Origin: a bacterium
GTDB lineage: Bacteria > Acidobacteriota > Thermoanaerobaculia > Multivoradales > JAHEKO01
DNA: 64,000 nt
Direction of reading: 5' to 3'
Assembly: GCA_024224155.1 (NCBI GenBank)
Contig: JAAENP010000254.1
Coordinates: 1-64,000 of the forward strand
Shown: positions 20,638-25,969 of the stretch, piece after piece
How the letters are laid out: each line of letters opens with the position of its first letter
Position numbering within the stretch: position 1 is the first letter of the stretch
The notes under the pieces: model-generated
What the model was told of the DNA's origin: nothing
The model's input: the letters and a program-made list of their open reading frames with translations, nothing else
Databases searched by the model: none
Position numbers and translations under genes: made by a program

Positions 20638-22104
20638 ATGGACCCTCACGCGAAGATCGTGGTCACGGTCGGACCCGCTACGGCCGGGGCGCGCGTCCTG
20701 AAACGCGTCCTCAGGGCGGGCGCCGACGTCATCCGAGTCAATCTTTCCCACGGATCGACGCAGGAGCACCGCGCGACCTTCGAGCGCGTGCGTGCCGTCA
20801 GCGCCGAGATCGGCTCGCATGTGCCGGTGATCCTGGATCTCATGGGACCGCGCTACCGGCTCGGCCGCATGGAAGCCCCGCGCTCGCTTCGCCGCGGGCA
20901 AACCGTGGTCATCGGACCCACCGGCGGCGAGGTCGATCTGCCGATCGACGACCCGAAGCTCCTCGGGCATCTGAAGAGCGGTGACCGATTCCTTATCGGC
21001 GACGGCTTGGTCGAGCTTGGCGTCAACTCCGAGAGCGGCGGTGCGTTCACCGCCGAGGTGGTCAATGGCGGCACGGTCTCGAGCCGCAAGGGCATCAACC
21101 TGCCCGACAGCGATCTGCCATTCACGATCAGCACCAAGGACCGACAGGACCTCGAACTCGCCGTCGAGCTCGGTGCCGACTATGTCGCGGCAAGCTACGT
21201 CGGGACCGCCGAGGATCTCGAGGCGCTGCGTCGGATCATTCGCCTCGCCGGGGGCGACATCCCACTCATCGCCAAGCTCGAGAGCGCGCGCGCGATCAAG
21301 CACCTGCACGGAATCGTCTCGAGTGCCGACGCGGTCATGGTCGCGCGCGGGGACCTAGGCGTCGAAGTGCCTCTCCACAGAGTTCCCGTACTTCAGAAGC
21401 AGATCATCGAGTCATGCCGGATTCACGGCAAGCCGGTCATCGTTGCGACCCAGATGCTCGAGTCGATGGTCAAGCGACCCCGTCCTACGCGGGCGGAGTC
21501 GTCCGACGTCGCAAACGCGGTTTTTGATGGCGCCGACGCGCTCATGCTCTCGGGCGAAACGGCCGCGGGCCGCTATCCGGTGGAAGCGGTGAAGACCATG
21601 GCGAAGATCATGCACGAAGCCGAGGCGCACAGGCTGTTCTCGCGCCGCGAACGCGAAGTGCGTCCCCTCGCCCACGCCGGAGACCCCGGATCGAGCAGCG
21701 AGGGCAGGGGCAAGCGCGACGAGGCCTTCGTCCTCGCCGACGTGGTCGCCGCGGCCGCGGTGTTCTCGACCAAGAACCTCAAGGTGCGTCAAATAGTGGC
21801 CTTCAGCCAGGGCGGCTTCACCGCCCGCACGATCGCTCGCTACCGGCCCGACACCCCGATTTGCATGTTGACCACGGATGCGCGAGTGGCACGAAGCGTT
21901 CAACTGGTCTGGGGCGTGCGACCTCTGCTGGTCGACAAATCGGTCGAGCACCACGACCAGGTCGTGGAGCTGGTGGACCGCGAGCTACTCGAGGCCGACC
22001 TCGCCCGGCCCGGTGAGGTCATCGTGATCTTGATGGGCGTTCCGATTCACGATCGCCCGCTGACCAACCTGATGCGCCTGCACCACGTTCGCAGCCTCGA
22101 GTGA
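20638..22104 (+). CDS. pyk: Pyruvate kinase
   Basis: A 488-residue glycolytic enzyme making pyruvate and ATP from PEP and ADP. The (beta/alpha)8 barrel begins IVVTVGPAT and has VIRVNLSHGS, the active-site lysine in PLIAKLES, the metal segment AVMVARGDLGVEVP, ATQMLESM and ALMLSGETAAGRYPVEAV. The C-terminal domain follows an inserted hydrophilic stretch (about residues 340-365). The early motif reads LDLMGPRYRLG where most enzymes have LDTKGPEIRTG, and AASYVG replaces AASFVR, so it belongs to a divergent branch. It overlaps the downstream hydrolase gene by 4 bp (GTGA). Confidence 0.92.
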   Translation: MDPHAKIVVTVGPATAGARVLKRVLRAGADVIRVNLSHGSTQEHRATFERVRAVSAEIGSHVPVILDLMGPRYRLGRMEAPRSLRRGQTVVIGPTGGEVDLPIDDPKLLGHLKSGDRFLIGDGLVELGVNSESGGAFTAEVVNGGTVSSRKGINLPDSDLPFTISTKDRQDLELAVELGADYVAASYVGTAEDLEALRRIIRLAGGDIPLIAKLESARAIKHLHGIVSSADAVMVARGDLGVEVPLHRVPVLQKQIIESCRIHGKPVIVATQMLESMVKRPRPTRAESSDVANAVFDGADALMLSGETAAGRYPVEAVKTMAKIMHEAEAHRLFSRREREVRPLAHAGDPGSSSEGRGKRDEAFVLADVVAAAAVFSTKNLKVRQIVAFSQGGFTARTIARYRPDTPICMLTTDARVARSVQLVWGVRPLLVDKSVEHHDQVVELVDRELLEADLARPGEVIVILMGVPIHDRPLTNLMRLHHVRSLE

Positions 22105-23000
22105 CGAAACGCCCTCCCGATCTTCCGAGTTTTCTAGAGGATCTGTTCCCCTTCGACCGCGCCACGATCGAGCTCGAGAACGGGCCGAATCGTGGACTGC
22201 TTATGCACTACGTCGACCACGGCCCGCGAGATTCGTGCGCGGTCTGGCTGCAGCACGGCAACCCGACCTGGAGCTTCCTTTGGCGTAAGGTCATCGCCGA
22301 ACTGCCTCATCTGCGCGTGATCGCACCCGATCTCTTGGGCTGCGGCCTTACCCAGAAGCTCCTCAAGCCTGGTGACCACACCCTTGCACGCCATCGCGAA
22401 GCACTTTCTGAGCTCTTCGATCGTCTGCGGATCGAGCGGGTCGTGCTCGTTGGGCAGGACTGGGGCGGTCCCCTGGTCGCTCTTCTTGGAGCTCATGCGC
22501 CCGAGCGAGTCGCCGGCCTGGTTCTGGGCAACACCTCGATACTGGTGCCGGCACGCCCGCGCGGCGCGGGCTTCCACCGCTTCGCGGCGACGCCGGTCCT
22601 GAGTGATCTCGTCTTCCGACTCGGGGCCTTTCCGCTGCAGATCCTCGACCGCACCCAGGGCGATCGGTCGTCGATCTCCGGCGAGATTGCGCGCGCCTAC
22701 CGCTGGCCGTTCGGTAGCTGGCGCGACCGGGCGGCTCCGCTTGGTCTGGCTCGGATGGTCCCGACCTCTCCCGATCACCCCAGTCTGCCGCTGCTTCTCC
22801 GCGGCGAGGAATGGGCACTGTCATTCGACGGCCCGATCGAGCTGATCTGGGGCCTGCGCGATCCGATCCTGGGCCGCGCTCTCAAACGCCACGAGAAACG
22901 CTTCCCACAGGCCCGGGTCACCCGCACCGAAGCCGGGCACTTCCTTCAAGAGGAAGTGCCCGAGGAGTTCGTCCGCGCGATTCGGGAGATTGTGGAGTAG
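22101..23000 (+). CDS. Alpha/beta hydrolase of the haloalkane dehalogenase type
   Basis: A 299-residue alpha/beta-hydrolase. The oxyanion segment HGNPTWSFLWR carries N54, and the nucleophile elbow GQDWGG has Asp (D120) rather than Ser, followed by W121. The catalytic His is H280 in AGHFLQEE and the acid is probably the Asp of GLRDPI. Asp nucleophile with neighbouring Trp and HGN-Asn is the set used by haloalkane dehalogenases to hold the leaving halide, so dehalogenation is chemically plausible. Several hydrolases with this look have other or unknown substrates. The GTG start overlaps the pyruvate kinase stop, implying co-translation. The true substrate is unknown. Confidence 0.85.
   Translation: MTKRPPDLPSFLEDLFPFDRATIELENGPNRGLLMHYVDHGPRDSCAVWLQHGNPTWSFLWRKVIAELPHLRVIAPDLLGCGLTQKLLKPGDHTLARHREALSELFDRLRIERVVLVGQDWGGPLVALLGAHAPERVAGLVLGNTSILVPARPRGAGFHRFAATPVLSDLVFRLGAFPLQILDRTQGDRSSISGEIARAYRWPFGSWRDRAAPLGLARMVPTSPDHPSLPLLLRGEEWALSFDGPIELIWGLRDPILGRALKRHEKRFPQARVTRTEAGHFLQEEVPEEFVRAIREIVE
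22934..22962 (+). repeat. Perfect 11-bp hairpin inside the hydrolase gene
   Basis: CGGGCACTTCC and its exact complement GGAAGTGCCCG are separated by a 7-base loop (TTCAAGA). The stem covers the codons for the catalytic histidine region AGHFLQEE, 38 bases before the stop. No T-run follows, so it is not a standard intrinsic terminator. It may slow translation or protect the mRNA 3' end, or be chance in GC-rich code. Confidence 0.6.
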
Positions 23001-23185
23001 ACACCCCGGGCCTCACGCTGTAAGACCGGTCCCTCCACCAAGATCCGCGCCGGCGAGGTCGAAACCGGCTTCTGTGCCTTATCTTAGCGGCTGGATTAGA
23101 CACCTGGCGCCTGTGGCCTCGCTAGCTGCGACGAGGGTCTTCGGCGGTGCCGCACGACCGGGCGGAAAGACCGGCGGGGAAGCAA

Positions 23186-23348
23186 GGCGGCTTGGCAGGC
23201 GATTCGCCCAGGGGGCTCGCCGCAAGCGCTCGGAAGGCCCTCTCGAAGACCACCAGCGGTTTGCGCGTAGCGGCGCGCAGGCGAGAGCCCGACCCATTGC
23301 AGGCCTTCCAGCTCGAGCCGGCCCCTGGTGAATCGCCTGCCGACCGCC
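23186..23348. repeat. 163-bp nested inverted-repeat element (possible structured RNA or REP/MITE-like unit)
   Basis: The 416-bp gap 23001-23416 between convergent genes has no credible coding region. Inside it lie paired arms in properly nested order: GGCGG (23186-23190) with CCGCC (23344-23348); GGCAGGCGATTC (23194-23205) with its exact complement (23330-23341); CCAGGGG-like (about 23207-23216) with CCCCTGG (about 23321-23328); GGAAGGCC (23232-23239) with GGCCTTCC (23302-23309); CTCTCG (23240-23245) with CGAGAG (23282-23287). Together they would fold one long interrupted hairpin with a GC-rich head. No transposase or RAYT gene is nearby. Whether it is transcribed is unknown. Confidence 0.6.
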
Positions 23349-23386
23349 GTCGACGCGCAAATTCGGTCGACACGCATTCGGGAGGA

Positions 23387-23405
23387 GACACCTTGGAACG
23401 GTGTC
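23387..23405. terminator. Weak hairpin before the MMPL gene end
   Basis: GACACC, a 7-base loop TTGGAAC and GGTGTC form a perfect 6-bp stem, 12 bases beyond the stop of the minus-strand exporter gene and at the end of the convergent gap. There is no T-tract on either side, so a terminator role is only a guess from position. Confidence 0.3.
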
Positions 23406-23416
23406 CCCGAGCCGGC

Positions 23417-25969
23417 TCAGTCGCGCGCGGGCGATTCTTCCAGCCAGGTGAGAAACGCCGGCAGCACGCTGATTGCCACAATGCACGTCGACAGCGCACC
23501 CAGGATCGCCACCATCCCCATCGAGCTCAATCCGGGAAAGTGCGACTGCGACAGTGACCCGAAACCGATGATGGTCGACAACGCCGCGAGAGTGATCGCC
23601 TTGCCGGTCTCGACCAGACCCTGTTGCCGACGCTCCGCGCTCTTGCCCGCGAACTCGCGATGCCGGTGCACCATGTGGACGCCGTAGTCGACACCGATTC
23701 CGATAATCATTGTGCTGACGAAAATATTCATGAAATTCATGGGTAGGCCCAACCACCCCATGGCGCCGAGCATCCACACGATCCCGATCAGCAGCGGACC
23801 CAGGGACAACGCCGTCGCGCGCGCCCTGCGGTAGTCCAGAAACAACAGAAACGCGACTACGACGAAGCCCAGGATCGCCGCGAACACCGCGTCTTTGAGC
23901 ACTCGCTCGCGCATGTAGCGGCTGATCACATTGGCGCCGGTCAGGACCGCGCCGTCTCCGAGGTCGCCGGCCAGGGCCAGCGCTTCCGGAGGCGCCTCCC
24001 TACGCCAAGTCATCGGAGGTGGATACAGGTAGACCACGCTCTTCCAGCCGGTTTCGAGCTGCCTCAGGTACCGTCGCATCAGCTTCTGTCCCTGGCTATC
24101 GCGCTCGAGCTCGGCAGCCGTCAACGGCTGGTCGCGGGCAATAGCGCTCCGAATCAGATCCAACCCCTTCGCGAAGGGTGTCGCACGCACGCCCTGTTTC
24201 TCGAGGGCGTCTCGGAACACGCGCTCGATACGATCCGAGTCGAGTCGATCGCCTCGCTCGGCTCGAAGCCAATCCAGCGCCGCTTCCTGGGAAACGGTGG
24301 GCGGCAGTAGCGAAGCCACCGAGTCCGCGTCCTGGAGAATGCCCTCTCGCACCAGACCCCGGGCCCCGGTCTCAGCTCGCTCAGCCAGCTCCAGAACTTC
24401 TTCGAGCTCATCGGCCGATACGATCAGCATCATCTGATCGAACCCGACTCCGAAGCGCTCGGCCACCTCGTCGCGCACTTCGACTCCCGGGTTGCCCGTC
24501 GGACGCATCGCCTTGACGCTGTCCTCGAAGCGCAGGTCCTTGAGGCCCCAGGCGGCCAGAGCGGTGAGCGCAAAGCCGGCCGCCAGCACGGCCTTCGGAT
24601 TGCGAATCGCGAACCCGATCACCCGCGCGCTGCCGAAACCGTGCAGGAACAGCCGTGGTAACGAACGGCTCCTCTGGTGCCGATCGTCGGCCCATGCCAG
24701 CATCGCCGGCAGCAAGAACAACACCGACAGCATACAGACCAGAATGCCGGTGCCGGTCAGGATTCCCATCTGAAAGAGACCGGTGAAATCGGTGACCGCG
24801 AACGCGTACAAGGTCGCCGCGCTGGTCACTCCGCCGACAACGACGGCGCGCCCCGAAGAGCCGCTCATCAGAGCCAGCGCCTCGTCCAGATCGTGACCGC
24901 GCTGGCGCTCTTCGACAAACCTGCCGTACGAAACGATGACGAAGTCGATCCCCAGGCCGATGAGGAGCGCGGCGACGCCGCTGGTCGCGGCACTGACCGT
25001 GCCGAACGCCCAAGCCGCGAAGGCGAAGGTCAGGACAAGTCCACACGCCAAGGGGACGAAGGCGTACAGAAGGAGACCGAACCGTCGAAAGGCGAAAAGG
25101 AACAGAATCAAAACCCCGAGCATGGAGGTCGCCGCGTTCGAGATCATGTCCGAGCGAATCAGCCCGGCGTCCGCCACTCCGATCACGTGGCGCCCACCCA
25201 GGTCCACCTGAGGATCGGGCGGCGCCTCGTCGCCGAACTCCTGCCGCCACTCGGCGGTCGACGCGAGCACAGCCTCTTCGACCGCAACGATCAGCTCCTT
25301 CGAGAAATCGACATCCTGGGGCGGCCCGGTCGGCTTGGCCAGAACGAGCATCATTCCCCGATCGCGCGAAAGGAAGTATCCACTCTGCCAATCGAGCGAC
25401 ACGCCGGCGCGCGAGCTCTCGAGATGGTCGAGGAATATCGTCGCGACCCCCAGGGGATCGAGGAGTACCAGGTCTTTCTGGGCAAGAAGCTTGGGCGTCG
25501 TAATCAGACGCCGAAGCTCCCCGGCGCGTCGCTCGAGCGCGTCATCGGTGAGGGCGCGGGCCAGATCCTCCAGAGCGTCGGGCGGCAGAAACAGCAGCGC
25601 TCGTGGCAGAAAGGCCTCGAGCAGCTCTTCGAGACTGCCGATCTTGTACTCGACTTCGGTGAGTTGGTCGAGCTCCGCAAGGCGCTCACCCAGAATCCCC
25701 ACAAAGGATTCATAGGGGTCCACCACCTCGCCCTCCGGCAGTCGCACGGCGACCAGCAGATAATCGACGCTACCGAACTCCTCGAGTCCGGCTCGAAAGT
25801 TCTGCACCACCGGCTCGTTCTTCGGCAACAAGCCCAGAACGTCGGTGTCGAAACGCAATCGGAGGGAAGAGACCAGGCCGGCGACGACGACCAAGGCGGC
25901 AATCGTGAATACCAGCCCGTAGCGACGGCGAGTCAGGCGGGCCAGGCTCCGCAGAGAGGGGTGCAGCAC
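23417..25969 (-). CDS. RND-superfamily exporter with two MMPL domains
   Basis: An 850-residue inner-membrane protein. The layout is that of MMPL/HpnN-type exporters: a first helix (FTIAALVVVAGLVSSL), a large periplasmic loop, a helix bundle near residues 270-430 (GLGIDFVIVSYGRFVEERQ, with VVGGVTSAATLYAF), a second periplasmic loop, and a second bundle from about 690 (GIGVDYGVHMVHRHREF, with ITLAALSTIIGFGSLS). The paired GxGxDF/Y motifs carry the acidic residues used for proton flow. Related proteins move lipids such as hopanoids or siderophore-like compounds; the cargo here is not known. It is the last gene of the long minus-strand run, 6 bp after pgsA. Confidence 0.85.
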   Translation of the reverse strand: MLHPSLRSLARLTRRRYGLVFTIAALVVVAGLVSSLRLRFDTDVLGLLPKNEPVVQNFRAGLEEFGSVDYLLVAVRLPEGEVVDPYESFVGILGERLAELDQLTEVEYKIGSLEELLEAFLPRALLFLPPDALEDLARALTDDALERRAGELRRLITTPKLLAQKDLVLLDPLGVATIFLDHLESSRAGVSLDWQSGYFLSRDRGMMLVLAKPTGPPQDVDFSKELIVAVEEAVLASTAEWRQEFGDEAPPDPQVDLGGRHVIGVADAGLIRSDMISNAATSMLGVLILFLFAFRRFGLLLYAFVPLACGLVLTFAFAAWAFGTVSAATSGVAALLIGLGIDFVIVSYGRFVEERQRGHDLDEALALMSGSSGRAVVVGGVTSAATLYAFAVTDFTGLFQMGILTGTGILVCMLSVLFLLPAMLAWADDRHQRSRSLPRLFLHGFGSARVIGFAIRNPKAVLAAGFALTALAAWGLKDLRFEDSVKAMRPTGNPGVEVRDEVAERFGVGFDQMMLIVSADELEEVLELAERAETGARGLVREGILQDADSVASLLPPTVSQEAALDWLRAERGDRLDSDRIERVFRDALEKQGVRATPFAKGLDLIRSAIARDQPLTAAELERDSQGQKLMRRYLRQLETGWKSVVYLYPPPMTWRREAPPEALALAGDLGDGAVLTGANVISRYMRERVLKDAVFAAILGFVVVAFLLFLDYRRARATALSLGPLLIGIVWMLGAMGWLGLPMNFMNIFVSTMIIGIGVDYGVHMVHRHREFAGKSAERRQQGLVETGKAITLAALSTIIGFGSLSQSHFPGLSSMGMVAILGALSTCIVAISVLPAFLTWLEESPARD

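Follow-up and report, generated by a model that had tools for sequence, protein, structure and literature searches.

A dispersed intergenic element with a conserved three-way-junction fold in one order of Acidobacteriota, and its possible mobility

Introduction

What kind of sequence is the long imperfect palindrome that separates two convergent genes in this acidobacterial genome? It lies in the window, a stretch of 64,000 nucleotides from a member of the Thermoanaerobaculia, in the 416-bp gap between an alpha/beta hydrolase gene and an MMPL-family transporter gene. A first-pass annotation, made from the letters of the window alone, read the palindrome as a hairpin of five nested pairs of arms in an otherwise empty gap, and proposed either a REP/MITE-like repeat copied in the genome or a structured non-coding RNA. 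The features of the locus are as follows.

22101-23000, + strand: alpha/beta hydrolase gene, flanking
23046-23070, + strand: remnant of module A (25 bp, 92% identity), a second repeat that lies 5' of many other copies
23173-23358, + strand: whole element, its ends placed by eye where same-genome copies stop aligning, at about GCGC..GCGC
23186-23214, + strand: 5' arm of the closing stem P1 (GGCGG..GGCAGGCGATTC..CCAGGGG), from alignment A2 and pair counts
23215-23278, + strand: inner arm P2 with its apical hairpin, from alignment and pair counts
23280-23319, + strand: inner arm P3 (GGC-GA-GRGC .. GCYC-GA-GCC), from alignment and pair counts
23322-23348, + strand: 3' arm of the closing stem P1, from alignment A2 and pair counts
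about 23375-23412, no strand: short hairpin GGRGACACC..GGTGTCCCC (GGGGACAC-type), outside the element
23417-25969, - strand: MMPL-family transporter gene, flanking

Results

The hairpin is one copy of a dispersed family

All five arm pairs of the annotated hairpin, the 12-bp pair included, are present in nested order between 23186 and 23348. Folded as RNA, the hairpin reaches -100 kcal/mol on the + strand (z -5.43) and -100.7 kcal/mol on the - strand (z -4.67), and none of 200 dinucleotide shuffles folds as well on either strand. The gap around it is less empty than had been claimed, since it also holds the 25-bp remnant of a second repeat and the short hairpin, of which there are 25 matches in two congeners.

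The suggestion of a repeat copied in the genome is borne out. A BLAST search with 23150-23390 against the 5.7-Mb draft genome from which the window comes returned 45 matches at 72-100% identity, the query locus included, and a covariance model, R1, found at least 59, several of them partial. The common part of the aligned copies spans about 180 bp, and copies in another genus, g6, start and stop close to the same bases (about L105:423 and 601). Rfam (4227 models) gave no match in the window at the gathering score and none in 22990-23430 to an E-value of 5; for eight relative loci searched to an E-value of 0.5, the only match was a sub-threshold one to mir-598, outside the element.

Further repeats occur beside the element. 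Module A, a palindrome, is about 250 bp long and has 34 matches in the same genome (for example L014:7575-7850); a consensus fold was computed for it. In this genome it lies upstream (5') of many element copies and is absent upstream of others. Other intergenic repeat modules (GAAGGAGCGGCG..GGGACCG; GCCGGTGC..GGCCGGCC) adjoin the element at L030, L032 and L040, and at L028, L031 and L044. Two repeats of the GAAGGAGCGGCG..GGGACCG type are also found in the congener G001 (L174), in the gap syntenic to that of the window.

The family has so far been found in one order of Thermoanaerobaculia (Acidobacteriota). By BLAST, 4 of the 40 genomes in a set of relatives have matches, and R1 matches 11 of the 18 genomes of the family, leaving seven without a match, and, under stricter filters, 19 of 148 genomes of the class; each of these counts includes the genome of the window. 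A second model, R2, built from the relatives, matches 17 of 396 genomes of the phylum, all in the host's order. Fourteen of the 17 belong to a single genus, g11, and none of the 20 unmatched genomes that are named (359 others are not) is a g11 genome. Copy numbers are lower bounds, the model searches having scored a part of the candidates (7 to 150 per genome); many genomes are incomplete drafts, E-values are rough and gene calls crude. A pattern scan of named genomes returned 13 stretches, 12 in Thermoanaerobaculia/Acidobacteria records and one in Acidimicrobiales (L172), which scores with neither model and is taken as a chance match. No relative was found on plasmids in one distant BLAST search, and two exact-pattern scans of viral contigs returned nothing. 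The titles and abstract openings of the open-licence papers searched contain no description of such an element.

The family fold is kept while its sequence drifts

Alignment A1 has 39 rows, drawn from 44 near-full copies with the exclusion of rearranged copies (L034, L021, L047, L050) and late-starting ones (for example L053:3335). Alignment A2 has 37 rows, 33 from the window's own genome and 4 from G001, two L037 copies with an 8-bp insert in common having been excluded. A structure of 51 pairs was built by hand from one copy's own fold and RNAalifold, and describes a three-way junction in which the closing stem P1 encloses two inner arms, P2 and P3. Across A2 this structure holds in 92.1% of cells, against 35-39% for slid versions. 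Changes on both sides of a pair occur at 22 pairs (shuffled mean 12.7) and in 126 cells (shuffled 43.4), counts that none of 500 shuffles reaches for either pairs or cells; the copies form a few subfamilies, so that not all of these changes are independent.

Three of the five annotated arms belong to this family structure and two do not. The GGCGG, GGCAGGCGATTC and CCAGGGG arms are family features, paired in 84%, 90% and 98% of cells across the 37 aligned copies. The two inner arms are copy-specific and close to private to the window copy: GGAAGGCC/GGCCTTCC is fully paired in one of the 37 copies and CTCTCG/CGAGAG in three, and the family has two other inner helices in their place. When the window copy is folded alone, the predicted structure favours the annotated inner arms over those of the family, whose structure, if imposed, gives a constrained energy of -91.4 kcal/mol against the minimum of -100. 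The layout of P2 is GC-U-CGCCGC-AA-GCGC .. GCGC-GYA-GCGGCG-C-GC; all eight pairs of its lower part show double changes across relatives, and its apical hairpin is poorly supported there (64% of cells pair, with 36 A-C and 31 G-U combinations). In P3, GA stands opposite GA in most own-genus copies, and 98% of cells are paired in relatives.

More distant copies carry the same fold. Alignment A4 (59 rows) replaced A3 (66 rows), which contained four opposite-strand reads of true sites, and also excludes L100, a near-copy of L101, and the weaker matches L106:540 and L112:2838. These 59 relatives have stem sequences that for the most part do not resemble those of the window, and nevertheless 91.7% of cells pair; the figure is 61% for shuffled and 39-45% for slid versions. 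Double compensatory changes occur at 48 of the 51 pairs, in 772 cells against 218 in shuffled alignments; A4 was fitted to R1, and its pair counts therefore lean towards the structure. Independent of the model are the single-sequence folds of the relatives, of which 61 of 62 form an outer stem with a multiloop inside, and the G-T and A-C counts in the stem arms given below. The fold is kept while the sequence drifts. That the element is structured, as first proposed, is supported by strong covariation in own-genus copies and in relatives alike, and the annotation's grounds for giving up its proposal, namely a single copy, no covariation and an ordinary folding energy, are all absent here.

One strand folds

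The arms themselves indicate which strand adopts this fold. In arm alignments that scored Watson-Crick matches only, with no model used, G-T outnumbers A-C by 117 to 20 in 62 relatives and by 42 to 18 in 37 own-genus copies, and we therefore take one strand, the + strand in the window, to be the one that folds. Simple folding is blind to strand: on the other strand the corresponding counts are 57 and 61 of the 62 relatives, and the mean folding energies of the two strands are -98.9 and -98.2. Among 26 copies from g6, differences from the consensus affect 9.7% of stem sites against 18.7% of loop sites. Changes shared among these copies comprise 45 G-T, 18 A-C, 99 other mismatches and 45 kept pairs, and rare ones (in two copies or fewer) comprise 17 G-T, 10 A-C, 25 other mismatches and 7 kept pairs. 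The weak strand bias of the rare changes fits selection at copying better than upkeep of each resident copy, although the numbers are small, the G-T excess is slight (17 to 10) and other mismatches outnumber either type in g6.

Copies appear to arrive, persist and decay in intergenic sites

With a crude gene caller, overlap with a predicted gene was seen for 2 of 108 copies. Where both neighbours could be assigned (92 copies, twins counted twice), the genes on either side converge in 29 cases, diverge in 15 and point the same way in 48; a gene on the same strand as the element is found upstream in 51 cases and downstream in 37. A terminator between convergent genes is rejected, as copies occupy all gene arrangements.

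At the window locus, the congener G001 has both flanking genes, with other repeats and no element in the gap, and in G002 the MMPL gene is present but has a pyruvate kinase gene as its neighbour where the hydrolase gene would be expected, again with no element; R2 found none at either locus to an E-value of 5. As the matching sites in both congeners carry other repeats, neither is a clean empty site. Elsewhere the element and both flanks are alike in two species at three locus pairs (L048/L054, L134/L137, L135/L136), and copies adjoining ruvB recur across one genus, so turnover is not fast. Next to the same downstream gene in g6, G007 has a complete element, G017 a complete one enlarged by a net 46 bases, and G012 a remnant reduced to the 3' end. 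Given the cases of presence and absence, the retained pairs and this g6 series, copies appear to arrive, persist for a while and decay. The additional bases in G017 (L177) themselves form a hairpin and lie in the P3 loop region.

Inverted pairs and the genes between them

Among 174 model matches, neighbouring copies less than 1.5 kb apart are divergent in 14 cases, tandem in five and convergent in one, an over-representation of inverted doublets of the kind that characterises REPINs; most copies in these draft genomes are single and not paired. Three g11 species hold seven further divergent pairs, and most of these enclose a single gene, which is ruvB in three species, apbE in two and a TPR gene in one. 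By eye, the twin members in G010 and G006 resemble different subfamilies. Paired copies enclose host genes (ruvB, apbE, the TPR gene, a gene for a DeoC/LacD aldolase) and, in one case, an uncertain ORF. No transposase is among them, and these interiors yielded no autonomous version of the element. In G023, a 240-aa ORF with no Pfam match (L118:2779-3501) lies inside a divergent pair 954 bp apart. The only convergent pair (L037:226-423 and 1575-1771) flanks the DeoC/LacD-type aldolase gene and has an 8-bp insertion in both members. Direct tandem arrays at L058, L129 and L130 have unit lengths near 325 and 440 bp.

Relative to ruvA, ruvB is inverted in 8 of 21 g11 species (loci L221-L226 and L261-L290), a count based on 8 of 20 species with both genes in one locus and on G086, co-oriented and added separately. 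A ruvB tree was built for 20 species, of which 7 have the inversion (the ruvB match of G075 was too short to include). On it the inversion needs five changes (bootstrap 4-6), at least two of which are forced by well-supported branches; resolution is poor, and no more changes are needed by 138 of 500 shuffled labellings. R2 places an outward-pointing copy on either side of ruvB in 5 of the 8 inverted species and in 6 of the other 13; of the remaining inverted species, two show one copy and G082 none. The similarity of the copies flanking ruvB is 98% within G027, 93% within G083 and 86% within G087, and 75-87% between species. At apbE the pattern is reversed, with 74% and 67% within a pair against 83% and 76% for same-side copies between species, and exchange between copies is therefore indicated at ruvB only.

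Search for a partner enzyme

A Y1_Tnp (RAYT) transposase as partner is unsupported. No element match was found at the 10 Y1_Tnp (PF01797) loci fetched, out of 50, and the two do not co-occur across the 18 family genomes, several of them incomplete: G006 has at least 16 elements and no Y1_Tnp, and G011 has 10 Y1_Tnp genes and no element.

Discussion

What, then, is the feature in the window? We suggest, with about an even chance of being right, that it belongs to a family of non-autonomous mobile elements, some 180 bp long, that would be copied by way of a folded single strand. We are led to this reading by the dispersed copies, their near-common ends, the intergenic sites occupied in any orientation, presence and absence at matching loci, the one-strand fold and the outward-pointing neighbours. 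Under this proposal an enzyme encoded elsewhere would recognise the folded single strand, which could be single-stranded DNA laid bare during replication or, with lower probability, a transcript, and would copy the element to new intergenic sites, perhaps treating an inverted pair as a single unit. If mainly those copies that fold went on to found new families, the fold would persist while the sequence drifted, and resident copies would be left to decay after insertion. With rather more reserve, at somewhat less than an even chance, we put forward a broader idea: that these elements represent a class of mobile element new for bacteria and so far restricted to a single order of Acidobacteriota. 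In this view, the signal for mobility would be a 160-nt three-way-junction fold and not a sequence, read by an enzyme in RNA or single-stranded DNA, and inverted pairs may in addition provide the ends between which host genes such as ruvB are repeatedly inverted.

Other readings share parts of this evidence. It is conceivable, if unlikely, that the many copies encode structured non-coding RNAs which work in RNA form, with divergent twins sharing a central promoter region. A strand-specific fold that tolerates G-U, extreme covariation among relatives, GA opposite GA in P3 and persistence at a few syntenic loci would all fit such RNAs. However, by eye the copies have no single upstream sequence in common, and a per-copy promoter is not apparent: module A precedes many copies in the window's own genome and not others, and in g6 some copies have a CCTCA-rich tract upstream, two have another flank in common and others have nothing. 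Nor does this reading sit well with copy numbers of up to at least 59 per genome, several copies partial, or with the 7 of 18 family genomes that lack a match. Tolerance of G-U, as in RNA, would likewise suit a SINE-like bacterial parasite mobilised as RNA, whose folded transcript a trans-acting reverse transcriptase turns back into DNA, and so would the placement of extra material (module A; the CCTCA-rich tract) at the 5' side of many copies with a more constant 3' end; we nonetheless think this quite unlikely, as it does not predict inverted twins.

The position of the copies, intergenic, often near gene ends and commoner in convergent than in divergent gaps (29 against 15), might instead point to an RNA element that acts in cis on the flanking mRNAs, such as a terminator, an RNase III site or a stability element, as proposed for REP-type repeats. 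We regard this as very unlikely because such an RNA ought to have a prevailing orientation, whereas that of the copies relative to their neighbours is not fixed (same-strand genes upstream of 51 and downstream of 37 of the 92 copies). The ruvB loci could also be taken to mean that the element is a site for a site-specific recombinase that flips the DNA between inverted pairs, given the inversion in 8 of 21 species, the five tree changes with at least two well supported, the outward-pointing pairs in 5 of 8 inverted and 6 of 13 other species, and flanking copies that are 98% alike in G027 and 93% in G083. Homologous recombination between inverted repeats would explain the flips equally well, however, and two of the eight inverted species show a single copy and G082 none; the members of apbE pairs are less alike than same-side copies between species, most copies are unpaired, and direct tandem arrays exist. 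A recombination site thus seems to us highly improbable as an account of the family.

As far as we are aware, dispersed bacterial palindromes are short, and their recognition depends largely on sequence. In the present case an element of about 180 bp appears to have spread through an order with a near-free stem sequence and a fixed multi-branched fold, which points to an enzyme that reads shape and makes the choice between RNA and single-stranded DNA a testable question. The covariance model can be used to annotate or mask these repeats. That ruvB has flipped more than once next to inverted copies suggests that the elements may reshape operons.

Comparison with known repeats helps to place the family. 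ERIC and Correia (NEMIS) sequences, found in other phyla, are plain, gene-less, intergenic imperfect palindromes of 100-200 bp, and the element is, like them, a gene-less intergenic imperfect palindrome; we know of no description of either with a conserved three-way junction and order-wide covariation. With MITEs the element has in common that it is short, gene-less and multi-copy, has inverted arms and is absent at some matching sites. It differs from them in that conservation extends to the structure of the inner arms P2 and P3, beyond what terminal repeats alone require, and in that no parent transposon with matching ends was found in the interiors of paired copies. According to PMC3733652, the TIR repeats of TIRYT genes adjoin tyrosine transposase genes, in Acidobacteria among others, with some as dimers and some carrying a common GGGGWSAS motif; this motif fits the short hairpin at about 23375-23412 and not the element. 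PMC3116915 and PMC3733652 describe REPs and REPINs as dispersed intergenic palindromes with genome-specific subfamilies, G-T pairs in their stems and inverted doublets that are the likely replicating unit. By that description the element resembles them in being dispersed, intergenic, present in many copies and in any orientation, grouped into genome-specific families and arranged in inverted doublets. Unlike REP/RAYT systems it has no link to Y1_Tnp genes (10 loci, 18 genomes), and unlike REPs, whose stems measure 5-13 bp in a table of PMC3733652, it extends over about 180 bp and is modelled as a three-way junction of 51 pairs. The element is therefore best read as REPIN-like in its layout and not in its structure.
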